Source: Methanofervidicoccus sp. A16 (GTDB taxonomy: Archaea; AGJL01; Methanococci; Methanococcales; Methanococcaceae). Taken from it: a DNA stretch of 64,000 bases. The notes beneath the pieces were generated by a model that ran no database searches, was not told the origin of the DNA, and saw only the letters and a program-made list of their open reading frames with translations. Position numbers and translations under genes: made by a program. This document shows, piece by piece, positions 23,765-42,622 of the stretch; the first letter of the stretch is position 1, and every line of letters begins with the position of its first letter. The stretch lies in contig NZ_CP022242.1 in the NCBI RefSeq assembly GCF_003351865.1, positions 868,001 to 932,000 of the forward strand. The letters are read 5' to 3'.

Positions 23765-26700
23765 TTAAGACCTCTCTATCCTCACTGCTTCCCCATTCCT
23801 CCACTCCACAAAGATAGGCTCATCTGGGAGATCTTCCAAGGTTTTGAAGTACTCTACTGCTGCCTTTGTACCCCATCTGTCGGAACCTGCCAGGAGGACA
23901 ACTGTATGGCCATCGATCTTAATTACCTCTATCACTCCCCTATGTTTTCCTGGGTATTCGTTTGTTACTCTTACTGGGAAGTAATTCAGGTACTTTTTCA
24001 CAACTGGGTTTGCTACAGGGCCCCCTATGAGAATACAGTCTTCTTTTATCTCTAAGGATCTGTCAGTTATATTTACATCGGTTTTTAGGTACTTTGCTGA
24101 GAGGTTGATGTCTATCTCGGAACCTACAATAAGTTTTGTTTTATATACGAAATACATTATATTTTCTGATTTGATATCCCTTGCTACTATCTTAGTGAGA
24201 GGTGATGGTCCTCCTCCACTGGAAGTGTAAGGAGTATCTCTTTCATCTGTAGATCTTTTTATAGTAGTTTTCTTTGGTGGTAATTTTGCTGAGAGTGTAA
24301 CTTTTACAACGGGATCTTTTATTAGTGTTATCTCCAATACTCCCTTGACAGGTATTCTGTACCATCCTATTTTATTCCCTATATCATTTTCTACCAGGGT
24401 TACTGTGGTAGTTCCATCGAATACTGTGACCTTTTCTACAGTTAGATTGCCTATTGGTATTCTAACTGTTATAAATCCTTTCTTGGAGGTATTTTCTGCC
24501 TTGAAGGAGATAGTAGATATTACCTTGTTTCCTACTTTTGTAGTATTCACTGTTTTATTATTTATTTTAAAATTCTGAGCTAGCACTGGTGTTATATTTT
24601 CTTTAATTTTTTCAACTACTTCTTCTACATCAGATTCGTTTTTAATTGTTTTATTTGTAATATTATTTGCCACTTCGAGGATTTTAGTTATGTTTTCAAT
24701 TATACTTTCGTTTATAATTATATTTGTACTTTCGTTAAGTATTGGTATTAACAATGTGTCATTTAAGTTTTCTGCTTTTAATTTTGTTATGTTTATATCT
24801 TCTGTTATTATTAATTCCACTGGATATATATCTTTAATATTTTCACTTATTTTTATATTCTTTATATCTATAGCCACTCTTTTGAAAGGATAACCTCCAA
24901 TATCTGAAAGGATTATTTTATGTAATATTATTGAGTAGGTTGTATCAGTTACATTAAAGGTAATATTAGTTATTGAGAAATTTCCAGATTTAGAGAAGTT
25001 GTAACCTGTTATAAATAATATATTGTTAGATAGACTCCAATTGGATATCCCTATTGAAGTAACATTTATTACTGATAGGTTTTCTAATTTGATATATATG
25101 TCATATCCTCCAACAGGTCTTTTCTCTGGGATATTTAAAACATCTAATGTTGCCCATATGGTATTATTATCTTGAGAGATTTTGTACAGTTTGACATAGG
25201 TGGTTACTGGTCGAACTTCAACTACCTTCACAATTTTGTTATCATCCTCATTCTCCTCGGGTACTACGTTCCCGACATCTACAACTGCCACTATGGTGTA
25301 TGGTTTAATCTTTTCAGGAGTCCAGTTGAAGGTTAAAGTTTTACTTTCTCCTATCTTTAACCCATTTACAGTTATAGATCCTATCTTGTTAGCATCTGCA
25401 TATAGATCCACTGAGAAGGATCTGCTATTATTTAAATGACCGTTGTTAGTTATGGTTACATTTATTGGAGTGTTTATTCTGTAGTAAGGAGTATCTATGG
25501 AGATGTTTGTTATGTTTAGGTTAGGTCCTCTAATGGTGACCGTTGCTGGATTGATAGTTATATTTTTGAAGAGATAGCCATCTACATCAGATATATTTAC
25601 TTCCTCGAAGCTAATACTTATAGTGCTTACACCTATAACTTTGAATATTGCCGTAGCTATTATACTAGAAGTATTTATTTCCCCGTCTATTATCTTGAAT
25701 ATAACTTTACCTCTTTCGAAGGTTATATTTTTAAGATCTTGTGTAGCATTTACAAGGAATGTGAAATTAGTGCATGTTAGTACCTGTGGATCGTAAGTTA
25801 GTACTCCCTCTATTCCCTTTACAGGTCTTCTGTAATCAACACCATATAGGGAGATATTTACAGTGAATGTATCGTCTAAGTCAGTTGTTAAGTTTGATGG
25901 ATTTATTTTTATGTATATTGGTTTCTCAGTAACTTTAACTACCTTCACAATTTTGTTATCATCCTCATTCTCCTCGGGTACTACGTTCCCGACATCTACA
26001 ACTGCCACTATGGTGTATGGTTTAATCTTTTCAGGAGTCCAGTTGAAGGTTAAAGTTTTACTTTCTCCTATCTTTAACCCATTTACAGTTATAGATCCTA
26101 TCTTGTTAGCATCTGCATATAGATCCACTGAGAAGGATCTGCTATTATTTAAATGACCGTTGTTAGTTATGGTTACATTTATTGGAGTGTTTATTCTGTA
26201 GTAAGGAGTATCTATGGAGATGTTTGTTATGTTTAGGTTAGGTCCTCTAATGGTGACCGTTGCTGGATTGATAGTTATATTTTTGAAGAGATAGCCATCT
26301 ACATCAGATATATTTACTTCCTCGAAGCTAATACTTATAGTGCTTACACCTATAACTTTGAATATTGCCGTAGCTATTATACTAGAAGTATTTATTTCCC
26401 CGTCTATTATCTTGAATATAACTTTACCTCTTTCGAAGGTTATATTTTTAAGATCTTGTGTAGCATTTACAAGGAATGTGAAATTAGTGCATGTTAGTAC
26501 CTGTGGATCGTAAGTTAGTACTCCCTCTATTCCCTTTACAGGTCTTCTGTAATCAACACCATATAGGGAGATATTTACAGTGAATGTATCGTCTAAGTCA
26601 GTTGTTAAGTTTGATGGATTTATTTTTATGTATATTGGTTTCTCAGTAACTTTAACTACCTTCACAATTTTGTTATCATCCTCATTCTCCTCGGGTACTA

Positions 26701-27427
26701 CGTTCCCGACATCTACAACTGCCACTATGGTGTATGGTTTAATCTTTTCAGGAGTCCAGTTGAAGGTTAAAGTTTTACTTTCTCCTATCTTTAACCCATT
26801 TACAGTTATAGATCCTATCTTGTTAGCATCTGCATATAGATCCACTGAGAAGGATCTGCTATTATTTAAATGACCGTTGTTAGTTATGGTTACATTTATT
26901 GGAGTGTTTATTCTGTAGTAAGGAGTATCTATGGAGATGTTTGTTATGTTTAGGTTGGGACCTTTAACGGTGACTGTGGCGGGGTGGATTATAATTTTAT
27001 CTTTATTATATGAATGTCCACTATCGTTAGCTATTACTGTCTTTTTCAAAGTTATATTTATCTCTCCAGGCTTTAATGTCTTGAAGGATAGAACAGCTAA
27101 GGTGAAATTACCATAGGGTGACTCAGAGAACCATATTAAACTTATTTTTCCAGAAGAAAGATTTACTTCTTTTAAACTAGCATTTTCTCCAACTTCACTT
27201 AACTTAATATCAGTTAAATTCACTACGTTAGAATCATAACTTATCTCAGTTTCAAAACCTCCACATTTTCCATCCTCAGGTACATTCTTTACAACTAAAG
27301 TTAAGTTAAAAATATTTCCTACCTCTACCTCCACATTACTAGGTACAAGTTCTACTGTGATATCCTCTCCATAACAGATACCAATCAATGACATCAATAA
27401 AATTGCTATTAAAAACTTCCATTTCAT
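23765..27427 (-). CDS. Multi-cohesin surface scaffold with S-layer-type C-terminus
   Basis: A 1,220-residue secreted protein. It has a signal peptide (1-20) and a cohesin-like domain (about 21-155). Three CARDB-like Ig modules (about 158-262, 397-501, 636-740) alternate with two near-identical cohesin-like domains (about 264-395, 503-634). A fourth, diverged cohesin-like domain follows (about 745-870), then an Asn/Ile-rich helical region. The C-terminal domain (about 1090-1220) has IGGPVANPVVKKYL and VVLLAGSDRWGTKAAVEYF, as in Methanococcales S-layer proteins. Many NxS/T sites suggest glycosylation. It is 50 bp downstream of the dockerin-bearing binding protein, its likely ligand. Confidence 0.82.
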   Translation of the reverse strand: MKWKFLIAILLMSLIGICYGEDITVELVPSNVEVEVGNIFNLTLVVKNVPEDGKCGGFETEISYDSNVVNLTDIKLSEVGENASLKEVNLSSGKISLIWFSESPYGNFTLAVLSFKTLKPGEINITLKKTVIANDSGHSYNKDKIIIHPATVTVKGPNLNITNISIDTPYYRINTPINVTITNNGHLNNSRSFSVDLYADANKIGSITVNGLKIGESKTLTFNWTPEKIKPYTIVAVVDVGNVVPEENEDDNKIVKVVKVTEKPIYIKINPSNLTTDLDDTFTVNISLYGVDYRRPVKGIEGVLTYDPQVLTCTNFTFLVNATQDLKNITFERGKVIFKIIDGEINTSSIIATAIFKVIGVSTISISFEEVNISDVDGYLFKNITINPATVTIRGPNLNITNISIDTPYYRINTPINVTITNNGHLNNSRSFSVDLYADANKIGSITVNGLKIGESKTLTFNWTPEKIKPYTIVAVVDVGNVVPEENEDDNKIVKVVKVTEKPIYIKINPSNLTTDLDDTFTVNISLYGVDYRRPVKGIEGVLTYDPQVLTCTNFTFLVNATQDLKNITFERGKVIFKIIDGEINTSSIIATAIFKVIGVSTISISFEEVNISDVDGYLFKNITINPATVTIRGPNLNITNISIDTPYYRINTPINVTITNNGHLNNSRSFSVDLYADANKIGSITVNGLKIGESKTLTFNWTPEKIKPYTIVAVVDVGNVVPEENEDDNKIVKVVEVRPVTTYVKLYKISQDNNTIWATLDVLNIPEKRPVGGYDIYIKLENLSVINVTSIGISNWSLSNNILFITGYNFSKSGNFSITNITFNVTDTTYSIILHKIILSDIGGYPFKRVAIDIKNIKISENIKDIYPVELIITEDINITKLKAENLNDTLLIPILNESTNIIINESIIENITKILEVANNITNKTIKNESDVEEVVEKIKENITPVLAQNFKINNKTVNTTKVGNKVISTISFKAENTSKKGFITVRIPIGNLTVEKVTVFDGTTTVTLVENDIGNKIGWYRIPVKGVLEITLIKDPVVKVTLSAKLPPKKTTIKRSTDERDTPYTSSGGGPSPLTKIVARDIKSENIMYFVYKTKLIVGSEIDINLSAKYLKTDVNITDRSLEIKEDCILIGGPVANPVVKKYLNYFPVRVTNEYPGKHRGVIEVIKIDGHTVVLLAGSDRWGTKAAVEYFKTLEDLPDEPIFVEWRNGEAVRIERS
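25221..26955 (-). repeat. 717-bp tandem duplication inside the scaffold gene (about 2.4 copies)
   Basis: Units start at 25221, 25938 and 26655, exactly 717 bp (239 codons) apart. By eye the first two units are identical or nearly so. The third matches until about 26955, where it diverges into the first cohesin domain. Each full unit encodes one CARDB-like and one cohesin-like module. Identity at silent positions implies a recent duplication or gene conversion. Confidence 0.9.
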
Positions 27428-27477: not shown

Positions 27478-28839
27478 TTAATTCGCAGTATAAGGTTCTG
27501 CAGTGTTACTCTCTGGGTAGTACCTCAGGAAGAAGTGGGTTGTTCTTCCCTTGAATGCCTCAGGATGTATTATAGCACCTAAGTCCATTAGAACCTCGTC
27601 GGTTTTCATCAGTCCAAGTTGCCAGTAGTCATCACTTATACAGAATAACCTTCCATTTTGCACAGCTTTGAATTCCTTATATCCAGGGTGATCCTCCTTA
27701 AAGGTATCTAAGTACTTAGTTGTTGATGGCACTACCCATATATCAGCGTCCTTTGCCCTCTCTGCAAAGGTTTCATAGTCTATCTTTGCACTACCTGTAC
27801 CTGGATAGTCGGTGAATATGTAAGATGCGTGGCAGAAGTCCATTATTCCCTTGGCAACGTAGGATTGAGCCTTAGGTACAGATACACCCCATCCTCGATA
27901 GTTCTTACCCCAGGCAACTAACACATTTGGATCACAGTTGTAGGTTCTTCTCTTTACATCTAAGGATCTCTTCTCAACCCTTGTGAAGTACTTCTTGGCA
28001 GCATCTTCCTTGTTGTAGAATGCTGCAAACATCTTTACCCATTCACACCTTGCTAAGTATGTTGGTTCCAAGTACTCTGCATTTGCAACGTAGGTTATAT
28101 TTAACTCCTTACACATTTCTATTATTGCATCTCCATCGTACCCTGGATATACGAATATTACCTGTGGAGAGATATTTACTATTAGATCCCAGTTTGGCTC
28201 CCGGGTTGAACCAACGTCTATTATAGATCCATTCTCAAGTCTCTTCTCTATCTCCTCAAAGTACCACTTGTATCCACTACCCCACATAATTCCCTTTATT
28301 GAGGATATCACAGATCCATCGTCATTTAAGGGCATCATTAGTGCAATGTGTGTTGAACTCATGACGACAACGTTCTCCAGTGGTACATCTATTACTATAT
28401 CGTACTTACCTTTAGCCCATTCAGGTACTGGCTGGGACTTGTTCTTCAGTAAGATTTTCTGATCTTTATCATCCACGAATATCTTATAAGCCCAACTCTC
28501 TCCCTCATATGGATTTACTTCATTACCCTCCTCGTCGTAGTACTTTAGATTCATGTTTTGAGCATACTTTATAGGTTCTTTCAATTTCTCGTAATTTTTA
28601 AATAGATACACTACATCTGCAATGTCTATACTGTTGTCACAGTTTAGATCTCCGTCTTCAAACGGTAGGTTCCTATTTTTAAATAGATACACTACATCTG
28701 CAATATTTATTTCACCATCTTCATTTACATCCCCAAATCTGTAATTGTAGTTGCTCTCTGCAAATACGGGCATTATTAATATTAATAAAGTTACAACACT
28801 TAGTATTACTTTAGGAATAATATATATGTTTTTTGTCAT
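27478..28839 (-). CDS. Dockerin-bearing periplasmic binding protein of an iron/cobalamin-type ABC importer
   Basis: The 453-residue protein has a signal peptide (about 1-27). An N-terminal type-I dockerin has two calcium loops, GDVNEDGEINIAD (36-48) and GDLNCDNSIDIAD (63-75), each followed by VVYLFKN. A FecB/BtuF-like substrate-binding domain follows (about 140-453; VVVMSSTHIALM, NWDLIVNISPQVIFVYPG, DADIWVVPSTTKY). Dockerins are normally C-terminal and attached to enzymes; one on a solute receptor is unusual. The ATG at 28839 follows GAGGTGG; the frame opens earlier at TTG 28854. It heads the minus-strand operon with the cohesin scaffold and is divergent from the other cohesin and permease genes. 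Confidence 0.88.
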   Translation of the reverse strand: MTKNIYIIPKVILSVVTLLILIMPVFAESNYNYRFGDVNEDGEINIADVVYLFKNRNLPFEDGDLNCDNSIDIADVVYLFKNYEKLKEPIKYAQNMNLKYYDEEGNEVNPYEGESWAYKIFVDDKDQKILLKNKSQPVPEWAKGKYDIVIDVPLENVVVMSSTHIALMMPLNDDGSVISSIKGIMWGSGYKWYFEEIEKRLENGSIIDVGSTREPNWDLIVNISPQVIFVYPGYDGDAIIEMCKELNITYVANAEYLEPTYLARCEWVKMFAAFYNKEDAAKKYFTRVEKRSLDVKRRTYNCDPNVLVAWGKNYRGWGVSVPKAQSYVAKGIMDFCHASYIFTDYPGTGSAKIDYETFAERAKDADIWVVPSTTKYLDTFKEDHPGYKEFKAVQNGRLFCISDDYWQLGLMKTDEVLMDLGAIIHPEAFKGRTTHFFLRYYPESNTAEPYTAN

Positions 28840-29037
28840 AATATGCCACCTCAAAACTTTTTTATATTACTAAAATATATTAAAAAAATATTTTCTATTA
28901 TTTTTAAATAAACTAATCACAGCCCTATTTTTTACAGAACTTTATATTTATATATTACGGTTTATTTTATAAAATTTAAAATTTACTTTAATTCAGATAT
29001 TTTTTAATAAGATAGAGAAATAGAAGGAGGGTGAATT
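28840..29037. promoter_or_regulatory. Divergent promoter region of the cohesin-dockerin cluster
   Basis: 198 bp between the two divergent operons. TATA-like tracts include TTTATATTTATATATTACGG near 28950-28970. The rightward genes have a strong ribosome binding site GGAGGGTGA at 29026-29034. Shared control of both operons is likely from the layout; I see no operator I can name. Confidence 0.5.
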
Positions 29038-29610
29038 ATGAAGAAAATATTTCCCATAAGTATACTATTTGTAGTTTTGCTATTAGTAGAAGGGGTTTTA
29101 GCGTCAGAGAATATCTATCTAAAGGTAGACATGCCTAAAAAGATAGAAATAGGTAAAAATTTTACCATAGATGTAGATGTTAATTTAAATAGAAATATCT
29201 CTGGTTTTGAATGTAAGATCGACACACCTATCTACGGTGCAGAGTGTATCCAATTTATAAATGCTACGGGAAATGAAAAAATAAAAGAAAAAGCAGGGAG
29301 ATTTTACCTATTAGATTTAAAAAATAACTCAGTGTTTATCAGATTTGTTCTTTTAGATAAACCTCTAAATTCAGATTTCCATCTAATTACAGTAAAAGGA
29401 AGAGCACTAAAAAAGGGGAATCTAACTATTAGATTCAGTGCAGTAGCCTCAGATGAAAATGGTAATGCCATCAAAATATCTCCCGTAACCTATCACTTAG
29501 AGATAGTTGGTAACAGCCAGGACAGTAGCAAAAAAACAGAGGATAATAACGTATTCTCTTGGATAATTGAGATCATATCAAATATCCTAAGAATGATATT
29601 CGGTGGTTAA
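29038..29610 (+). CDS. Secreted single-cohesin protein
   Basis: 190 residues. A signal peptide (1-22, ending GVLA) leads into one cohesin-like beta-sandwich (about 24-158: YLKVDMPKKIEIGKNFTIDV, ISGFECKIDTP, LITVKGRALKKGNLTIRFS, then SDENGNAI). The short polar linker ends in a hydrophobic tail (SWIIEIISNILRMIFGG) that may anchor it loosely to the membrane. It is first of the rightward operon, with ATG 29038 after GGAGGGTGA. It is a candidate membrane-side receptor for the dockerin protein. Cohesin assignment is by pattern and context. Confidence 0.65.
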   Translation: MKKIFPISILFVVLLLVEGVLASENIYLKVDMPKKIEIGKNFTIDVDVNLNRNISGFECKIDTPIYGAECIQFINATGNEKIKEKAGRFYLLDLKNNSVFIRFVLLDKPLNSDFHLITVKGRALKKGNLTIRFSAVASDENGNAIKISPVTYHLEIVGNSQDSSKKTEDNNVFSWIIEIISNILRMIFGG

Positions 29611-30492
29611 ATGAGGAGGGTTTTCTATATTTTTATTACCTTACTATTTTTTTCAATGTTTTTCACTAATACCTATGCTCTGGACAGTATAGTTGTGAAG
29701 TTAGATCCTGATTATGTAAAAACCTATGAAGAACCGGTATATTTTAAGATATGTGTAGAGAACATACCTCCAAGGGAGAGTTTAGGTACACCATCAATAT
29801 ATTCCGATCCTGAAATAATAGATGGAGGATGCCTTGGAGTTGATATATATATTAATTACTCCTCTGAACATTTAAAACCTATAGGATTCAATTGGAGTGA
29901 GGAATTTAAAAATGTAAAAATGAAAGAATATAGATTTGAAAATGGAACGTTCTATCTCAGTATTTCCTTTCAGGATCCTAAAGAAGGTAATATATGTCTT
30001 GGTACTCTAACTTTCAGTCCCATTAAAAAAGGTAGAACTACTTTAAATCTTTCAGGTATAGTAAGTTCCGAATATGGAATAACATACAGTAATAAAAATA
30101 GATACTATATAGATTATGGTAAAACTTCCCAACGTATTGAATATTATCCAAATACTGAATTTCACGGTGCAACGGTAGTTATTGAAGGAGAGGGCAACTA
30201 TATTAACTACTCCACGAAGTTGGAAGAAACTTTGGGTGAAAGTAATATCGTAGATGAAGAAAGTTCAGAATACAGAGGTAAAGTTATCAATAATATAACA
30301 GTTATTATTAATCAGGATGTTCCCAAGGTTGTTGTAAAAGAGATTAATATATCAGAAGGAAAACCCAATATTACCGTTATAGTAAACACTTCAGAGGTGT
30401 TAGATTATAAATTGTTAATTTACACTTTCATAGGTAGTTTATTATCAGGTATTCTTTTCGGAGCAATAATGAAGTTGATGAGGATAGTATGA
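29611..30492 (+). CDS. Membrane-anchored cohesin-like protein
   Basis: 293 residues. It has a signal peptide (1-24, ending NTYA), a cohesin-like domain (about 26-195; VKLDPDYVKTYEEPVYFKI, GVDIYINYSSEHLKPIGFNW, LGTLTFSPIKKGRTTLNLSG, SSEYG), a linker with repeated NxT/S sites, and a C-terminal transmembrane helix (about 265-285, LLIYTFIGSLLSGILFGAIM). The ATG abuts the previous stop and the gene overlaps the next by 4 bp (ATGA), so it is translationally coupled. It probably displays a cohesin on the cell membrane. Confidence 0.68.
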   Translation: MRRVFYIFITLLFFSMFFTNTYALDSIVVKLDPDYVKTYEEPVYFKICVENIPPRESLGTPSIYSDPEIIDGGCLGVDIYINYSSEHLKPIGFNWSEEFKNVKMKEYRFENGTFYLSISFQDPKEGNICLGTLTFSPIKKGRTTLNLSGIVSSEYGITYSNKNRYYIDYGKTSQRIEYYPNTEFHGATVVIEGEGNYINYSTKLEETLGESNIVDEESSEYRGKVINNITVIINQDVPKVVVKEINISEGKPNITVIVNTSEVLDYKLLIYTFIGSLLSGILFGAIMKLMRIV

Positions 30493-32618
30493 AACCCATA
30501 ACTATTTTGTTGTTAATGGTATTTTTTTTATTTATTCCACTATCTCAAGGAGAGAACATTACAGTGGAACTTGTACCTCGTAGTGTAGAGGTAGAGATCG
30601 GAAGTACCTTTAACTTAGATCTAGTTGTAAAGAATGTTCCTGAGGATGGAAAGTGTCAAGGTTTTGAAACTGAGATACATTACGATCCTGATATTGTAAA
30701 TTTAAGTAATATTCAATTAAGTGAGGTTGGAGAGAGAGCTGGTGATTTTACTACTATAAAGATAAACCCCACCTATGGATACATGTCTCTAATGTGGCTC
30801 TCTGATCCACCCTATGGTAACTTTACCTTGGCTACCCTCTCCTTCAAGGCGTTGAATCCTGGAGAGGTAAATGTAACTTTAAGAGATGTAGCAATATCTG
30901 ACGAGAATGGACATTCGTATAAAAATATAGTGAAATATCCAGCAACAGTAACAGTGAAATCCATAAATGAATCCATAGGAATTCTAACACTGAAAAATTT
31001 CAAGATAAACAGTAAAATAGATGGTATTTTATCTCTAATTGTGGCAGAAACACCTGTAAAGAATATATCTGGAAAAATAGTTTTTAGTAACGTATCTCTC
31101 GTAGGAGTGCCCGTACCTCTCGATGTAGGCATGTCTAGAAATTACAGTTACTCCATAGAGAATAATACTTTCTTATTCTTCACAGCCCTCTCTAAGGAGT
31201 ATGAAAATAAAACAGCATTTAATTTCTTAAAGATACCATTATTGATAAACAGTTCCTCTTACAACATATCTATAAATCTATGGATAAACGGAAAGTTAGT
31301 AGAAAATGTATCTATTATTAAGGAGGAAAATACCACTCCAAAATACAGTGGTTTAATTTTCTATGTAGATGGAGATTATAGAGAGAAGATAAACATATCC
31401 TTAGGTTATTCAAAAGAAATAAAATTAAAAGTATACAACGTTAATAGAAACCTCACCAATTTCTCTGGATGTATCTTTATAAACAACTCCCTCTTTAAAG
31501 TTTCTAACTACAGAGTACCTGAGTACTCTAAAATATATAAGAGGATAAATTTCTCCAACATTACCTACAACAACAGTTATCTATACTTTAACATCTCCCT
31601 TACAAATGGAACAAATGGGACTTACAGTATATTAAAATTTACAATATCTCCCAAGGTTAATGAAAACATCTCCTCTCTTATTTATCTAGAAAATCTTTCC
31701 ATATACGAAAACTGTACAGAATTATCACTTCCCTATAAAAATCTCACAGTAAATATAATAAAAAGAAGAGAGAATACGCCTCCAAAGTTGAAAGTAGTTC
31801 TCTTTATAGAGGATAATAAAAAAGTTCATTTCAGAGCCTTAGGTTACGATGCAGATAACGAGACGTTGAGATACTTCTGGGACTTTGGAGATGGGAAAAA
31901 TTCAACGTTACAGGATCCTGTACATATATACACTAACTGTACTACATATTTAGTATCCTGTACAGTGTGGGACAGTTTTAATGAGAGTGATAAGGTAGAG
32001 TTCATACTTCCTATAGTAGATGTATCACCCCTTGAATCCTACTCTATAATTGATATAAATACTTCTCATAACAACTCTAAAAACTACACCATTTATTTAA
32101 ATCTCTCTTTAAAAAATCCCTTTGAATATAAAGTAGGAGGATACATCAACTTTGTAAATTACTACAACAATTACTACCCCCCAAAGCTACAGTACTATAT
32201 AGAGTTAGATCCTAATGAGACTAAAAGTTTACTGATCCCCATTAATATCACTAAATCCTGTGACATAAAATGGAATGTAGTGTATTATCCACTATACAAG
32301 GATAAACTCCTAGGGGATGCGGAACTTAAGTACTATCAATGGGATTTTGAGAAAAAGATAGATGTATCAAAGTACAGTAAAAAACCCATAGAGGAGAGTA
32401 TAGTATATAAATATATAAATACTTACTCCAAGGTAGTGAATATCAGTACTCCCAAGGTAGTGGTGAAGATAATAAGGTGTTACGATGGAGAGTATATCGT
32501 ATCTAAGGATATTGTTGTTAGTACAAAATCTATATACTTCTACATCGCTACGTCTCTCTCTGGGTTTATGATAGGATTGATAACAATATTAACTGTTATA
32601 AAAAAGAGAGGATTATAA
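30489..32618 (+). CDS. Cohesin and PKD-domain membrane-anchored surface protein
   Basis: 709 residues. After a signal peptide (1-21) comes a cohesin-like domain (22-155) closely similar to the first cohesin of the scaffold gene (both have [14 protein letters not shown], then [16 protein letters not shown]). A beta-rich middle contains a second cohesin-like stretch, followed by a PKD domain (about 430-512: [21 protein letters not shown]). A C-terminal transmembrane helix (about 683-705) ends KKRGL. The similarity to the scaffold indicates both bind the same dockerin. It lies directly upstream of the permease genes. Confidence 0.78.
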
Positions 32619-32683
32619 ATATTATAATTTTTGCTCTAATTATATTATTTTTTTATTTAATAATTATTATCAACGGTGAAACT

Positions 32684-33733
32684 TTGAAATACAAGAGGTT
32701 TCTAACGGTATTCTTTATATCACTTGTTATACTCACTCTTTTATCCTACGTAAGTATCAAAGAGGGTACTATTCCTATAAAGGATGAACAGTTGAAAAAA
32801 TACCTCCTAGAGGGAACCTCTGGCAATCCTATTATTGATAAGATAATAGGGAAGTTAAGACTACCAAGAACTGTGGGAGCCATCATTGTCGGAATGGGGA
32901 TTGCAGTTGCAGGGATACTTATGCAGGGATACTTCCGGAATCCTCTGGCAGATCCCTATCTAATGGGTGTGGCAAGTGGTGCCTCCTTAGGTGTTGTGTT
33001 GTATATATTCACATCTCTACTTTTCAACTTAGGGTTTCCTCGTTCACTATATGGCTTTATCCTTGCAGCCTATATAGGTTCTCTGATTACCATGTTTGTA
33101 GTTATCAACATCGCAAGGGTTGTTAAACAGACTGCAACCTTACTGATAAGCGGTATTATGATAGGTGCCATAGCCTCTGGATTTACCACTATAGTGGTAT
33201 ATACTGCAGACTTTCTCGGCGAGGAGAGATCTGAACTCTCTGGGTATCTTATGTGGGGTATGGGTTCTGTAAATAACTTAACTTGGGATCAGATCCGAAT
33301 CATGACTTCACTAATCATCCCTGTAGTTATACTATCCTACATATTACTATCGAAAAAACTTGACGCCAATCTCCTTGGAGAGATGTACGCCCAGAGTGTA
33401 GGGGTTGATATAAAGAGTTTAAGGAGGTGGTTGATAGTACTCTCCTGTATATTAACTGCAACGGTAGTGGCTTTTACAGGGCCTATAGCCTTCGTGGGAA
33501 TGGTATGTCCTATAATAAGTAGGATGGTAGTGGGAACTTCAAAACACCTCTATGTAATACCTACAACTGCCCTCTTAGGTTCCATATTTGTACTTCTTGC
33601 AGATATACTTACAAGACCTGGAGTTCTGATACCTACATCCTCTAACAATCTGCCTCTTCTATGTCCTCTATCTATAATAGGGGCGCCTATAGCTATACTG
33701 ATATACTTAAAGATAAGGCGTATGGGGATATAA
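32684..33733 (+). CDS. FecCD-family ABC transporter permease, first copy
   Basis: 349 residues with about nine or ten transmembrane helices, in the iron-siderophore/cobalamin (BtuC/FecCD) permease family. Signature segments are [61 protein letters not shown] and [25 protein letters not shown]. The start is TTG, set by GGTGAAACT immediately upstream. It ends at the first base of the next permease gene (TAATG). It probably forms a heterodimer with that permease and imports the ligand of the dockerin binding protein. Confidence 0.9.
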
Positions 33734-34863
33734 TGAGTTATTATAGATACTTTGTAATAACTACTCTACTAATTTTTATAGCGATACTCGTTATACTATG
33801 TATGTACTATGGAGGAAATGCCAGATCTATCACCTTAGGAGATACTACAGATTTTATTCTATATGAAACAAAGGTTATGTTAAACAGCATATATCATAAA
33901 ATCACTGGAGAGGATCTCTTCTATCTACCTCCTCTAAGTGAAGAGAAGAAATTTAAATATACACTTTTAAAAGAAGTACGTTTTCCCCCAATTTTCGGAG
34001 CCATTATTGTAGGGATAACCCTATCTGCATGTGGTTTAATGCTTCAGACACTCTTTAGGAATTTACTAGCCTCCCCCTATACTACAGGTATATCTAGCGG
34101 TGTACTATTTGCAGTTACTTTGGTAATATTTATAGACAGTATTGCACAACTCTTTTCCATCCTCAACATAGATGAGAAGATAGTTGCCGGCTGGTGTGGA
34201 GGTATATTATCCCTAATAATACTCCTTATAATAGCACTTAGAGTTAAGGAGGTAAATGGTGTTCTAATTGTTGCCCTCCTCTTCAGTTATCTCTTTAGAG
34301 GCATAAGTTCCTATTTAATAGCAAATGGAGAGGAACTCTCTATTGTAGAGTACTATATGTTCATAGTTGGAAGTTTAACAAGGGTTAATTTAAACAATCT
34401 TTTACCTCTTACCCTAATCACTTTAATCTTTGTGATAGGTAGTGTATTTTTAATAAAACCTCTAAACGCCTTACTCTTTGGTGAATCCTATGCTAGAAGT
34501 TTTGGATTAGATGTAAAAAAGATCAGAGTACTAATACTACTACTAACATCCTTCGTTGTTGGAGCCATAGTTCCCTACCTTGGACTTATGGCATTTGTAG
34601 GAATAGCAGCTCCCTATATGGCAAGAGTTGTAATAAAGACCTCCGACCATAGGTGGCTACTACCTACAACGATGCTATTAGGTATTATCTTGATGCTTGT
34701 CGCTCATCTAATATCCTTGAAGTATTGGGTACCTATCCACTACCTCTACGGTATAAACCGCCCTGCCCAAATCTTACCTGTAGGTTCTATCTTAGAAATA
34801 ATAGGAGGATTGTTGGTGGTATATTTGGTATACAAAGGAGAGAGAAAAGTAAGAATACAGTAG
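33733..34863 (+). CDS. FecCD-family ABC transporter permease, second copy
   Basis: 376 residues, the same family as the preceding gene but clearly divergent. It has an extra N-terminal extracytoplasmic stretch (about 25-85), then LLKEVRFPPIFGAIIVGITL, LMLQTLFRNLLASPYTTGISS, LGLMAFVGIAAPYMARVVIK and HRWLLPTTMLLGIILMLVAHL. The frame opens earlier at 33661, but the ATG at 33733 follows GGGGAT and fits the family. BtuC-type importers usually use a homodimer; two unlike adjacent copies suggest a heterodimer. No ATP-binding subunit follows: the next 950 bp are repeats. Confidence 0.9.
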   Translation: MSYYRYFVITTLLIFIAILVILCMYYGGNARSITLGDTTDFILYETKVMLNSIYHKITGEDLFYLPPLSEEKKFKYTLLKEVRFPPIFGAIIVGITLSACGLMLQTLFRNLLASPYTTGISSGVLFAVTLVIFIDSIAQLFSILNIDEKIVAGWCGGILSLIILLIIALRVKEVNGVLIVALLFSYLFRGISSYLIANGEELSIVEYYMFIVGSLTRVNLNNLLPLTLITLIFVIGSVFLIKPLNALLFGESYARSFGLDVKKIRVLILLLTSFVVGAIVPYLGLMAFVGIAAPYMARVVIKTSDHRWLLPTTMLLGIILMLVAHLISLKYWVPIHYLYGINRPAQILPVGSILEIIGGLLVVYLVYKGERKVRIQ

Positions 34864-35821: not shown

Positions 35822-37714
35822 TTATATCACCAGTTTTTTAACAACCTCCCAATCTCTCATGTCTATTATATGGATTTCACTGTTCGAAATTGTATAAAGG
35901 TACTGGTTGATATAGAGGGATCTTAGAACTCTTCCTTTATGAATATCCTCCATCTCCAAGGATATTTTATCATCCTCTATTCTAAATATATAGCAACTGT
36001 TTCCTCCAGGAATTACCAATACCTTATTATCCTTATCCCATAGGAAGGCGTGGGGATTGTAAAGTGCAGGAGACCAATATTGAGGAAGTACGTACTTATC
36101 TACCTTGATAGGTTTAGTTTTATTCTCCACGTTGAAGAGGGACACCTTCAACCTCCCATCGTCATCCTTTCCCACTCCTATCAATCTATTCTCATCTACA
36201 GGGTGTAGATAAGTTGAATAGCCAGGTATCTTCAATTCTCCCAGGAGTTTTGGATTCTTGGGATCACTGAGATCTATTACAAAGAGAGGATCCTTCTCCC
36301 TGTAGGTAACCATATAGGCGATATCTCCCATAAATCTTACTCCATAGATTCTCTTTCCCTTAGAGAGACCTGTAAGTTTTCCATACACCTCTAAATCCTT
36401 AAGTACATAGATGTTGTTGGTACTCCTATCCCTGTACTGCCAGTAATCTCCTATTGTAGTGGCAACTCTTAGGTATCCCTTGTACTCATCCATGGCGTAG
36501 GAGTTTATAAGTCTTCCAGGGACACTACCACTTTTAACATCGAAGGTGTCTATGTCTATACCTACTATACCTGTTTTCTCAAAATCCTCCCAGTGTTCCT
36601 CTAAGTATTTGTTGAAATCCTTTTCCATAGTATTCATTAGGTTCAGAGCGTCCTCTCTCTTCAGGGTCTTTAAATAATTACTTATTACCCTGTTAACTTC
36701 CAGAAACTTTGCCTCATCACCGAAGTACTGGGAGTTTATTATATTTTTAAGCAGATCTCTAATATCCTCTGGGAAGTATTTATCTAGATTCTCCTCTATG
36801 AACTGTAGGTATATCCTCTCAATATTGGGCTCTAGATGATAGGCAAGGTATATTTTATTCTTTGACATGTAAACAACTGTACTTCCAGAACCTGGTAGGG
36901 CAACAACGTTGGAGATGTTCCCATCCTCTACATCTATGGCTGATACTATATAGGAGCCTTCGAAGTTGTGGGATACTGTAGAGGGTAGGACAGGGAGGTA
37001 GTAATTTCTAATCTTCATATCTCTCCATGGGAGGGGATACTCTATATCTCCCTTCAGTACTACGAGGTATAGTTTTCCTCTGTACAGCCTAGAATCCACA
37101 TAGGTACCATTTATATCCATCTTCCACTTTAATTTTGGATCCTTAGGAGAGGTTATGTTATAACTTAGTATCCTATCTCTCTCTATAATTATCAAGGTAT
37201 CGTTGTAGAGGTAGAGAATACCTCCGTGGGATATATTACCTACTACCCCTGCAGATTCTGGAGGGAAAGCCTCTATAATATAAGTACTTCCTGTCCAGTA
37301 GGGATATTTGTAATACATTATCCTAACATCAGATTCTGGAGAGAAGTAGATGTACCTACCGTCAGTTTTTACAATATCTCCCTCATCTATTCCTATTACT
37401 TGGACGTTTGTTTTAGAGTACCTCTCTACAGTCACGTGAGCTTCTTCAGTGATTGTTTTCTCCTTATAGGTTGTGGTCTCTAAGGTTACAGAGGCATAGG
37501 ATCTATCTGCAGTTATGGGAATATTGTAGTTATAGAAGTTACTGTATCTTCCACTATCTAATCTCCTAACAAAATCCTTAAAGTTATTTTCATCTGCAGG
37601 CACTACTTTAAACTCTCTATCTTCTAACTTATCTATACCAGGTTTTTGAAAACAGCCACTTAAGGATAGTAGGAATATCAATATAGTTGTGAAGGATATT
37701 AGATATTTTTTCAT
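35822..37714 (-). CDS. Beta-propeller domain lipoprotein
   Basis: 630 residues, a predicted lipoprotein (lipobox LSLSGC with Cys21). The body matches the archaeal/bacterial beta-propeller domain family: TNVQVIGIDEGDIVKTDGRYIYF, then repeated blades such as GILYLYNDTLIIIERDRILSYNI, RLYRGKLYLVVLKG and IAYMVTYREKDPLFVIDLSDPKNPKLLGELK-type segments. A helical insertion (about 300-380) interrupts the propeller. It is exported and membrane-tethered; function is not established. The start follows GAGGAGGGAAAATT. It stands alone. Confidence 0.82.
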   Translation of the reverse strand: MKKYLISFTTILIFLLSLSGCFQKPGIDKLEDREFKVVPADENNFKDFVRRLDSGRYSNFYNYNIPITADRSYASVTLETTTYKEKTITEEAHVTVERYSKTNVQVIGIDEGDIVKTDGRYIYFSPESDVRIMYYKYPYWTGSTYIIEAFPPESAGVVGNISHGGILYLYNDTLIIIERDRILSYNITSPKDPKLKWKMDINGTYVDSRLYRGKLYLVVLKGDIEYPLPWRDMKIRNYYLPVLPSTVSHNFEGSYIVSAIDVEDGNISNVVALPGSGSTVVYMSKNKIYLAYHLEPNIERIYLQFIEENLDKYFPEDIRDLLKNIINSQYFGDEAKFLEVNRVISNYLKTLKREDALNLMNTMEKDFNKYLEEHWEDFEKTGIVGIDIDTFDVKSGSVPGRLINSYAMDEYKGYLRVATTIGDYWQYRDRSTNNIYVLKDLEVYGKLTGLSKGKRIYGVRFMGDIAYMVTYREKDPLFVIDLSDPKNPKLLGELKIPGYSTYLHPVDENRLIGVGKDDDGRLKVSLFNVENKTKPIKVDKYVLPQYWSPALYNPHAFLWDKDNKVLVIPGGNSCYIFRIEDDKISLEMEDIHKGRVLRSLYINQYLYTISNSEIHIIDMRDWEVVKKLVI

Positions 37715-39502: not shown

Positions 39503-40183
39503 CTAATCTTCAAAGTATACTCTCCCATCCCTTAAATAGACAATCCTGTGGGTGTATTCTGCCACAGATGTATCGTGAGTAACTATTACAACAGTTTTTC
39601 CCTCCCTATTTAACCTCTTTAACAACTTCAATATCTTCTCTCCAGTCTTTGAGTCTAAACTTCCTGTAGGTTCATCACAGAGTAGAATTGGAGGGTTATT
39701 TACCAGAGCCCTTGCAATGGCAACTCTCTGTTGTTGTCCTCCACTTAACTGGTTTGGATAGTGGTTGGCAAATCTCTCATCTAACTCAGCCATCTTTAAA
39801 CATCTTATTGCTCTATCTCTCCTCTCCCTTTCAGATAGTCTGTTTTTATACTTAAATATCAGTGGAAGTTCAACGTTTTCCAGTGCAGTTAAAAGAGGTA
39901 TTAGGTTAAACTGTTGAAATACAAATCCAACTTTATTCCTTCTGATCTCTGTTAATTCGTCATCTTTGAGGTTGTTAGTTTTTATACCATCTATATAAAC
40001 CTCTCCACTGTCTGGCCTATCTAAACACCCAATAATATTCAACAGTGTAGATTTCCCACTTCCACTAGGTCCCATAACTGCCACAAATTCCCCTTTCTCT
40101 ATTTTTAAATTTATACTTTTTAGGGCGTAAATTACTTCATTTCCTACAGTGTAAGTCTTTGTTACATCTCTAAGTTCAATCAT
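39503..40183 (-). CDS. LolD/MacB-type ABC transporter ATP-binding protein
   Basis: 226 residues. Walker A GPSGSGKST (38-46), Q-loop FVFQQFNLIP, signature [15 protein letters not shown] and Walker B LLCDEPTGSLD identify the MacB/LolD subfamily, which normally powers an FtsX-type mechanotransmission permease. It closely resembles the M. jannaschii LolD-type ATPase of known structure. It overlaps the preceding secreted-protein gene by 8 bp. No FtsX-like permease follows; the next gene downstream is tRNA-Trp. Its membrane partner must lie elsewhere or be the Yip1-like protein of this operon. Confidence 0.92.
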   Translation of the reverse strand: MIELRDVTKTYTVGNEVIYALKSINLKIEKGEFVAVMGPSGSGKSTLLNIIGCLDRPDSGEVYIDGIKTNNLKDDELTEIRRNKVGFVFQQFNLIPLLTALENVELPLIFKYKNRLSERERRDRAIRCLKMAELDERFANHYPNQLSGGQQQRVAIARALVNNPPILLCDEPTGSLDSKTGEKILKLLKRLNREGKTVVIVTHDTSVAEYTHRIVYLRDGRVYFED

Positions 40184-41690
40184 TTAGTCTCCCTTTTGAA
40201 AAGATTCTGTAGAGTAAGAGTAAAACTCCAAGGACAAATAACCCTCCTATAATCATTGGTATATAACTATTATTTCCTCTACTTTCATAGGAGAATATAT
40301 CAACCTTTTTAACGCTTATATTTCTCTCTATTTTAATTAGTCCATTGTTTTCATCTCGATATTGTATAACTACTGGAATTATATCAGTTTTATTTGTCAC
40401 CTTGGCGTGGAGTTCAAAACTCCCATAGTCATCTGGATTTAAGGTACCTATAAAATAGTTTTCATAGGGTTTTAATGGTACTACATCCTCTGTTTCTTTA
40501 ACAGATATCAGTACCCCCTTTGCTCTCCCTGTTCCTACGTTAGATATATCCCCAGTTATAACTTTCTCCTCTGTTCCCTCAACATTTACACCAGTTAAAA
40601 CTATTTCTACCTCTCCAACAACATCTATAGATACGTTCCTCTCTATCTCGTTCCCATCAAAGATAACTTTCACTGGAATTTCTTTAACTCCTCCCTCATC
40701 CACTTTAATGGTGAAGGTTATATTTTTAACCTCCCCGTAGTTGATAGGTATGATTTTTTGACTGTTTCCTATGTAGTACTTCCCAACAATTACAGTGAAG
40801 TTAGTATTCCTGTAGTTGTTTTTAATAAAAAGTGTAAAGTTACATACCTCTCCAAGAGGAAGGATGTAGTTTTTCACACCTATATTGATAGCATCATTTG
40901 GGATTATCTTGAATACTAAGTTTCCTCTCTCTTTTATTATCTTCTGATTTTTGTAATTGTAAACTATTGTTTTCGAGTTTATCCCTTCAGTTTCTTTTTT
41001 ATCCACCAGTTGGAGGTTGTCATAAGGACTGCTGTAGGTAAGTGTATATGGTAGTTTTGCCATCCCTATATTCTCTCCATAGACCTTTATCTCTACTAAT
41101 TTACTTTCACCTGGTTTTATATATTTTATATATCCCTCTGAGAGGGCATATATGTTATTCCCATCTTCAAACTCTATTTTTACATCTTGAGCTGTTCCTG
41201 TTCCTTCATTTTTTATCTTTATATAGATCTTATTTACTCCCTCTTTAATTACTGGCGGATATTCCAATGTTAATGCTGGTTTTCCTCTAATTGGGATTTC
41301 AAATACCCTGTTATCTGAGTATCTCCTTCCATCTCTGGTATAGTTGCAGTATACTACTATTTTATAGTCTCCTGATGGAGTATTTTCTCTAATATATATG
41401 AGAAAATGTCCTACTCCCTTTTCACCTTGAAGTAGATGACCTTCGTAATCTTCTCCCTTAAGGACTTGAATATACTTTTTACTTATTCCATAAGGATATA
41501 TACTGATTACAGTGTTATTTATTTCCTCCTCTGGTAGGATTACAACCCAGAGGTCATAGGTCTTTCCAGGCTCTAAATATTCATTTTTATAGTCAAAACT
41601 TGTAATTTCTACACCATATATTGAATCAATAAAAATAATTAACAATACAAATAACAAAAATAAAATAAAAAAGGTAGAAGGTTTTTTCAT
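40176..41690 (-). CDS. Secreted Ig-repeat protein with C-terminal membrane anchor
   Basis: 504 residues (COG1361-like S-layer-associated type). It has a signal peptide (about 1-26), then several beta-sandwich modules with the pattern of CARDB/NPCBM-associated repeats (VKEGVNKIYIKIKNEGTGTA, VVGEVEIVLTGVNVEG), and a C-terminal transmembrane helix (about 480-498) before a short basic tail. GGTGAAAGTTG precedes the ATG at 41690. It lies between a Yip1-like gene (11 bp upstream) and the LolD ATPase. Such proteins often serve as the extracellular arm of MacB-type complexes in archaea; this is inferred from context. Confidence 0.72.
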   Translation of the reverse strand: MKKPSTFFILFLLFVLLIIFIDSIYGVEITSFDYKNEYLEPGKTYDLWVVILPEEEINNTVISIYPYGISKKYIQVLKGEDYEGHLLQGEKGVGHFLIYIRENTPSGDYKIVVYCNYTRDGRRYSDNRVFEIPIRGKPALTLEYPPVIKEGVNKIYIKIKNEGTGTAQDVKIEFEDGNNIYALSEGYIKYIKPGESKLVEIKVYGENIGMAKLPYTLTYSSPYDNLQLVDKKETEGINSKTIVYNYKNQKIIKERGNLVFKIIPNDAINIGVKNYILPLGEVCNFTLFIKNNYRNTNFTVIVGKYYIGNSQKIIPINYGEVKNITFTIKVDEGGVKEIPVKVIFDGNEIERNVSIDVVGEVEIVLTGVNVEGTEEKVITGDISNVGTGRAKGVLISVKETEDVVPLKPYENYFIGTLNPDDYGSFELHAKVTNKTDIIPVVIQYRDENNGLIKIERNISVKKVDIFSYESRGNNSYIPMIIGGLFVLGVLLLLYRIFSKGRLND

Positions 41691-41701
41691 CAACTTTCAC
41701 C

Positions 41702-42355
41702 TTAGAGCATCTTAATTATACCAAATAACTGATAGACGAAAAGCAATATTGTTGGAACCAGTGCAACAATAAATGCCCTATTTAGATCAAGATTTCTTGC
41801 ATATCTTATTCCATAGGTCCATAAACCAAAGTTCCACAGGATAACTGCAATATCAATCAAAAATGTTGTATATAACATAGTCTTCGGAATTATAGATGAT
41901 ATGATCTTTTTTACAACTGTGGGATCTTGTAGTTGTTCCATCGTTAATGTAGGTATTTGAACATTTGAAAGGAAATAACAACTTATTGGAATGATAATTA
42001 ACAGTCCTATTAGATTAGGCAAGAAACCGTAGCCGGTAAATTCTAACGTTCTCTTAAAAGAGCCCTCTCCATCAAATGCCGCAGAAATTAGGTGCATCAA
42101 ACTTGCTATTAACAACCATACTACAAACCTACTTAGAAGGGAAAATAATAGAGATATTGCCAATATTATTGATATCTTACTCTGTATATCTGGTGGAAAA
42201 AGGTTAATCATTACTAACGTTCTAAAATACATATATATGGCATCAAGTACTGAAACAGCGAGAACGATTAGAAACGGTATTATAAGAGAAGGTTCTTTGC
42301 TTGATAGATCTCTAAAGAACTTGTCTGGATTTAAAATTAAATCCTTTATATTCAT
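41702..42355 (-). CDS. Yip1-domain membrane protein
   Basis: 217 residues with about five transmembrane helices. The pattern LILNPDKFFRDLSSKEPSLIIPFLIVLA at the N-terminus, LLIASLMHLISAAFDGEGSFKRTLEFTGYGFLPNLIG in the middle and LWTYGIRYARNLDLNRAFIVALVP near the end is typical of archaeal Yip1 proteins. Function is not established. The ATG at 42355 follows GGGGAGGAAAT; the frame opens at TTG 42376. It heads a three-gene operon with the secreted protein and LolD ATPase. Confidence 0.78.
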   Translation of the reverse strand: MNIKDLILNPDKFFRDLSSKEPSLIIPFLIVLAVSVLDAIYMYFRTLVMINLFPPDIQSKISIILAISLLFSLLSRFVVWLLIASLMHLISAAFDGEGSFKRTLEFTGYGFLPNLIGLLIIIPISCYFLSNVQIPTLTMEQLQDPTVVKKIISSIIPKTMLYTTFLIDIAVILWNFGLWTYGIRYARNLDLNRAFIVALVPTILLFVYQLFGIIKML

Positions 42356-42622
42356 ATTTCCTCCCCTATTTTTCAACTAAAAATTAAAAATAAAAATAAT
42401 AAACATAAAATAATATAATAAACAAATATTTTATATAATTTTCTTTTTTAGATTAAGAGAATGTTAGCAATATTTTTAAATCATTATAAACTTATTTTAA
42501 AATAATGATTAAGGGATTTATCTGTTTACAGTGCTTGATTTTATAAGATTGGTATTTCTAAGTTTAGATAAAATTTTTACACCATTATTTTTTATTATCT
42601 TATAAGTTCTTTATTTAAATAT

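Follow-up and report, generated by a model that had tools for sequence, protein, structure and literature searches.

The stretch of DNA analysed here, hereafter the window, comprises 64,000 nucleotides (C1:868001-932000) of the 1.50-Mb, single-contig genome of Methanofervidicoccus sp. A16 (G000; order Methanococcales), and it holds a locus in which a substrate-binding protein (SBP) of the FecB/BtuF type, here called SBP-alpha, carries a dockerin and is encoded among cohesin and FecCD-type permease genes. We consider it likely that this locus specifies a docked ATP-binding cassette (ABC) importer of the metal-chelate type, in which the dockerin stands in place of a lipid anchor and cohesins hold the receptor. 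In the arrangement that we infer from the sequences, the exported receptor would be soluble and free of any lipid anchor, and its N-terminal dockerin, substituting for the usual lipobox anchor, would physically bind, probably in a calcium-dependent manner, to cohesins on proteins encoded alongside. Three cohesin proteins of 190, 293, and 709 amino acids (aa) would keep the receptor at the membrane by the FecCD permeases, where it would serve transport, and a scaffold linked to the S-layer would keep further receptor copies in or under that layer. The same dockerin would be accepted at least by cohesin 1 of the scaffold and by cohesin 1 of the 709-aa membrane protein, and a paralogous receptor with the same kind of dockerin, SBP-beta, encoded elsewhere in the genome, would share these sockets.

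A dockerin-bearing receptor among cohesin and permease genes

SBP-alpha is a class III SBP encoded at 27478..28839 on the minus strand; the open reading frame as listed (27478-28854(-)) begins with TTG, and the ATG at 28839 is the likelier start given its AGGTGG ribosome site. The protein has a signal peptide without a lipobox cysteine, and its core matches the Pfam family Peripla_BP_2 (PF01497; E 3.8e-23) as well as FecB-type receptors in a phmmer search against the PDB. Its AlphaFold2 (AF2) model, with a predicted local distance difference test (pLDDT) score of 88.5, led in Foldseek to iron, heme, and B12 receptors. The dockerin (28570..28740, minus strand) consists of two calcium loops with a DVVYLF-type helix after each; it lies narrowly over the Pfam cut-off for Dockerin_1 (PF00404; 23.2 against 22.9 bits), and residues 39-87 match 5lxv_B, a chain of a solved cohesin-dockerin complex. 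The calcium ligands of loop 1 (D42, N44, D46, and D53) and loop 2 (D69, N71, D73, and D80) are invariant in 26 aligned dockerin-bearing SBPs, giving the tandem loops with D1, N/D3, D5, and D12 ligands that characterise a type I dockerin. Pfam, phmmer, and these invariant ligands thereby bear out the receptor with an N-terminal type I dockerin that a preliminary description of this DNA had recognised.

The same strand carries, 50 bp downstream, the gene of the 1220-aa scaffold (23765..27427), a protein that has a signal peptide, the domain order cohesin-CARDB-cohesin-CARDB-cohesin-CARDB-cohesin, and at its C-terminus an S_layer_C domain (S-layer outer domain; 23828..24187). This last domain scores 39.4 bits against a cut-off of 23.9 (PF05124; 6.3e-10) and presumably attaches the scaffold to the S-layer. 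The S-layer N-terminal domain is absent from the scaffold’s Pfam matches at E values up to 1, which is weak evidence since the same scan also missed cohesin 1; the scaffold reads as an S-layer-linked protein and not as the S-layer protein itself. Scaffold cohesin 1 (27005..27370) reaches 38.7 bits with PF00963 when scanned alone and is unlisted in the whole-protein scan. Cohesins 2 (26249..26641) and 4 (24866..25204) have no Pfam match when scanned alone and are assigned by profile, and cohesin 3 (25532..25921) is a duplicate of cohesin 2 (all on the minus strand). A profile built from scaffold cohesin 1 and the cohesin of the 709-aa protein (A1) had cohesins, of cellulosomes, as its best PDB matches, the PDB matches of a profile of the remaining scaffold cohesins (A4) were all cohesins, and hhalign related the scaffold cohesin groups to each other at 97.5-99.7%. 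The scaffold gene also contains a perfect direct repeat of 1020 bp (25220-26239 and 25937-26956, period 717 bp), the mark of a very recent duplication or conversion of a cohesin-CARDB unit; the number of repeats may differ between strains.

On the plus strand, divergent from the receptor and scaffold genes, three secreted cohesin genes run straight into two FecCD genes. They encode the 190-aa single-cohesin protein, whose C-terminal tail is amphipathic or membrane-inserting (29038..29610), the 293-aa single-cohesin protein, with a membrane helix at the C-terminus (29611..30492), and the 709-aa multidomain protein (30489..32618), which combines a first cohesin (PF00963, 27.5 bits), a putative further cohesin-like domain at 31341-31784 (80% against the cohesin profile), a PKD domain (Pfam, 1.4e-12), and a C-terminal membrane helix; its domain at 30960-31325 gave no match to the cohesin profile. 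The 190-aa and 293-aa proteins themselves have no Pfam cohesin match. Orthologues of the former score over the PF00963 cut-off, and hhalign related the two families to cohesin at 98.8% and 98.2%, respectively, compared with less than 5% for CARDB and PKD as negative controls. For the 293-aa protein, AF2 gave a model (pLDDT 78.8; predicted template modelling score 0.75) whose top 45 PDB matches in Foldseek are all cohesins. Judged by profile-profile comparison, and for the 293-aa protein also by predicted fold, both proteins are cohesins.

The permeases that follow on the plus strand are of the FecCD/BtuC type (32684..33733; PF01032, 9.2e-67) and the FecCD type (33661..34863, with the ATG at 33733 as the probable true start; PF01032, 1.6e-52), and the pairing of a class III SBP (PF01497) with a FecCD permease (PF01032) that marks an importer of this kind is present. 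The gene order given in the preliminary description, with the receptor between a four-cohesin scaffold and three secreted cohesin genes followed by two FecCD genes, likewise agrees with the Pfam and profile results. Between the two divergent sets lies a promoter region (28840..29037) in which a box of the AAACCGTAATATATA type precedes the SBP gene; similar boxes are present in several relatives, and a search for a regulator palindrome in this region across relatives yielded none in common. A FecE-type ATPase gene was not found beside the FecCD genes of the window, and an ATPase adjoining SBP-beta of the same genome was rejected, the neighbour being a NiFe-hydrogenase-like protein.

As for the substrate, the sequences suggest the metal-chelate or tetrapyrrole class. 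A closer assignment was rejected both by family, the NCBIfam scores being far under cut-off, and by Foldseek, whose matches mix iron-siderophore, heme, B12, and molybdate receptors. Four genomes (G004, G009, G026, and G034) have CobN genes near their receptor genes, and in the genome of the window one lies about 6 kb from SBP-beta, no more than a hint at tetrapyrroles or their metals.

Exchange of dockerin and lipobox among relatives

The comparison covered 36 Methanococcales genomes; a receptor homologue was found in 33 of the 41 genomes searched, and the nearest named loci are those of Methanothermococcus single-amplified and metagenome-assembled genomes. Where loci are readable, the dockerin-bearing SBP-alpha usually adjoins scaffold and/or cohesin genes, and it does so in all five genus-level groups; fusions of a dockerin to PF01497 beside cohesin and FecCD genes, which the preliminary description had named as something to look for in other Methanococcales, do exist there. 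In five genomes (G024, G027, G028, G029, and G033), the SBP-alpha orthologue has no dockerin and carries a lipobox (SGC, AGC, or PGC). FecCD adjoins this lipobox receptor in four of the five and adjoins SBP-beta in G024, and the locus in G027 also holds FecCD together with an ABC ATPase. SBP-beta shows the same swap of dockerin and lipobox in the same five genomes, and neither a cohesin nor a dockerin was detected anywhere in them. The change in the lipobox lineage came with the loss of the cohesin genes or with their prior absence. Lipid anchoring is presumably available in the window’s genome too, given the lipobox protein (SGCFQ) encoded in the window at 35822-37714.

Among the genomes that are at least 90% complete, 19 hold both dockerin and cohesin, one (G019) a dockerin only, none a cohesin only, and seven neither (Fisher p 9e-6, relatedness ignored). 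Reduced forms of the system also occur: G026 and G030 have dockerins on both receptors, with the membrane-tailed 190-aa protein as the sole cohesin detected, and the 293-aa and 709-aa genes are absent from the locus of G005. Judging by these forms, the membrane socket seems to be the central partner, with the S-layer scaffold as an extra. In the place of the scaffold, G026 has a gene (L046:3528-6602) for a 1024-aa secreted membrane protein without a Pfam match, which adjoins the receptor gene and was rejected as a cohesin scaffold; G030 has a gene of similar size. Beyond the order, the receptor profile gave two matches in 261 archaeal genomes, neither covering the dockerin, and a scan of named genomes outside the Methanococcales found only bacterial dockerins. 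Receptor paralogues that have neither a signal peptide nor an anchor are encoded in G027, G028, and G032 (L056:6817-7797, L057:7452-8453, and L063:8599-9573); from their sequences, they are possibly cytoplasmic ligand carriers.

SBP-beta of the window’s genome (L031:8735-10000, equivalent to G000:C1:1193735-1195003; L099) adjoins a NiFe-hydrogenase-like gene, and neither FecCD nor cohesin genes were found beside it. Other proteins of the order carry dockerins or dockerin-like elements as well. A secreted alkaline phosphatase of the window’s genome (L114; G000:C1:961276-962799) ends in a divergent, C-terminal dockerin-like double loop, and this dockerin-like phosphatase (L111-L121) recurs in ten further genomes, including G008, where no cohesin was detectable. 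In G011, a 1751-aa PKD/CARDB/TED protein (L105:7144-12399) with a C-terminal dockerin (33.2 bits) and cohesin-like neighbours is possibly part of a second surface assembly. The notion that dockerins are exclusive to receptors in this order was rejected on account of the G011 protein and the phosphatases. In the window, at 39503-42376, an ABC-type ATPase gene adjoins the gene of a CARDB surface protein, another pairing of surface-protein and ABC genes.

Concerted evolution and competing explanations

In the 13 genomes that hold both SBP-alpha and SBP-beta, the dockerins of the two receptors are on average 76.1% identical within a genome versus 66.7% under random pairing (p 1e-5), whereas the receptor cores, which control for relatedness, give 31.5 within genomes and 31.4 at random. 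Cohesin 1 of the scaffold and cohesin 1 of the 709-aa protein are likewise 58.9% identical within a genome versus 44.8% at random (p 2e-5); no comparable effect was seen in the other cohesin pairs tested, two of which differed by about one point (p 0.04-0.05). The simplest reading of these patterns would be that the co-varying dockerins and first cohesins share a partner. Through the concerted evolution of their first cohesins, the outer and the membrane anchors look as though one plug would fit both, and most likely both anchor types would accept the same receptor. Taken with the alternation of dockerin and lipobox and with the joint absence of both modules (G019 excepted), the sequence comparisons support the earlier view of genuine dockerin and cohesin families that are very probably partners. 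The accompanying prediction of a receptor held at the S-layer and near the membrane fits the S_layer_C domain and the membrane segments at the C-termini.

Several observations weigh against a docked importer or against the reach of its evidence. In the receptor tree, the lipobox members of each family form a single clade, all in one lineage, so that the swap amounts to about one coordinated lineage change that hit two receptors and not to five independent events. G019 has a dockerin receptor and no detected cohesin, and in G017 and G020 the set of 190-, 293-, and 709-aa genes is separate from the receptor and scaffold unit. The excess identity between dockerins is driven by four genomes (89-96%), and the pair in the window’s genome shows no excess (67%); in DNA identity, two genomes reach 97% and the pair in the window’s genome 78%. 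Alternatively, neutral gene conversion between nearby copies can also give rise to concerted evolution. Finally, the best candidate for the ATPase (G000:C1:402358-403488) lies outside the window and is unlinked to the receptor locus; it is 70% identical to the ATPase gene adjoining the cohesin cluster of G023.

As a special case of the docked importer, the receptor could take part in a relay, loading on the S-layer scaffold, dissociating, and re-docking on the membrane cohesins to deliver its ligand to FecCD. Such a relay fits the two anchor types, whose first cohesins match and evolve in concert, the four-cohesin scaffold that bears S_layer_C, and the near-duplicate dockerin loops, which would suit dual binding modes. 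However, cellulosome cohesin-dockerin pairs bind very tightly, so that receptors could exchange only if binding were weak or switched, and a relay would be needless in G026 and G030, where no partner but one membrane-tailed cohesin was detected; nor do the data as a whole require one. We regard the relay as possible but doubtful, while a hand-off of ligand from the S-layer to the membrane, as the preliminary description had it, is plausible as such. It is rather unlikely, in our estimate, that exchangeable receptors with the same dockerin alternate between the S-layer scaffold for capture and the membrane cohesins for delivery as a shuttle for scarce metal chelates.

The cohesins could instead chiefly hold other cargo, such as an extracellular hydrogenase, with the dockerin of the receptor being incidental. 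Hydrogenase anchoring via type II cohesins has indeed been proposed (PMC11452385), and the G011 protein and the dockerin-like phosphatases of several genomes are not receptors. Yet all PF00404 matches found in the window’s genome are on the two receptors, the cohesin genes adjoin the receptor gene, in many genomes together with FecCD, and the word “dockerin” does not occur in the main text of the hydrogenase proposal; we consider this explanation improbable. There is a similarly small chance that the pairing is real and serves surface retention, adhesion, or sensing in place of uptake. CARDB and PKD domains are common in adhesion-type surface proteins, and the unlinked ATPase would fit this function as well, but FecCD directly follows the cohesin genes in the window, and the lipobox orthologue of G027 keeps both FecCD and an ABC ATPase in its locus. 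Very improbable, lastly, is a partnerless EF-hand-like calcium element beside unrelated Ig-type modules, the outcome that the preliminary description had named as fatal to its proposal: the barely sufficient Pfam score of the dockerin and the several cohesins that have no Pfam match of their own would allow it, but the profile, fold, and control comparisons led us to reject an Ig-module artefact in the cohesin-like genes, and the two modules are absent together.

Relation to known cohesin-dockerin systems

The principle of a dockerin-bearing SBP is not new. Dockerins on ABC substrate-binding proteins are reportedly common in anaerobic methanotrophic (ANME) archaea, which also encode multi-cohesin proteins, and a link to the S-layer was proposed there (PMC9012536); the statement in the preliminary description that no docked uptake complex of this kind was known is therefore too strong. 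It is further weakened by island V of Methanococcus maripaludis Mic1c10, a corrosive strain, in which cohesins occur with siderophore-type transporters and hydrogenase anchoring was proposed (PMC11452385). The locus in the window shares with the ANME systems the fusion of a dockerin to the SBP of an ABC importer and the multi-cohesin proteins. By domain annotation, however, the ANME receptors are of the NikA/OppA and TroA types and that of the window is of the FecB/BtuF type. In ANME-2c, the S-layer domains are on dockerin proteins (PMC9012536), whereas in the window the domain is on the scaffold itself, and unlike in the ANME reports, receptor, cohesins, and permeases form one conserved locus in which a swap of dockerin and lipobox is seen. 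With island V, from the same order, it has in common the association of cohesins with siderophore-type transporters; in contrast to the hydrogenase proposed there, our analysis suggests the adjoining receptor as the natural partner of the cohesins.

Like clostridial cellulosomes, the system has several cohesins per surface scaffold and a type I dockerin with two calcium loops. It differs in that its host is a methanogen, its cargo would be a nutrient receptor and not glycoside hydrolases (no dockerin-bearing glycoside hydrolase was found in the window’s genome), and its scaffold has CARDB spacers and S_layer_C where clostridia have CBM and SLH domains. A non-cellulosomal cohesin of Archaeoglobus fulgidus (PDB 2xdh), found by Foldseek as a match of the 293-aa protein, is a further archaeal parallel. 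Compared with the lipoprotein receptors of the FecB/BtuF type that work with FecCD/BtuC, the families are the same, and the five relatives hold direct lipobox orthologues; the anchor in the window, by contrast, would be a protein-protein module. What is new is the conserved receptor-scaffold-permease locus of the Methanococcales, with its swap of dockerin and lipobox and the concerted evolution of its dockerin and cohesin modules, although subscription literature may list some of the modules. Likewise new, for a methanogen, is a scaffold that joins several cohesins to an S-layer domain.

The role of archaeal cohesins and dockerins outside cellulosomes has been called unknown or unclear (PMC5244752, PMC9012536), and the locus described here suggests a concrete function for them. 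The relatives that do not have the sockets and anchor the same receptor by a lipid provide a built-in natural control. The locus also offers a testable alternative partner for the M. maripaludis cohesins proposed to hold corrosion hydrogenases and, coming from a thermophile, possibly a heat-stable docking pair.

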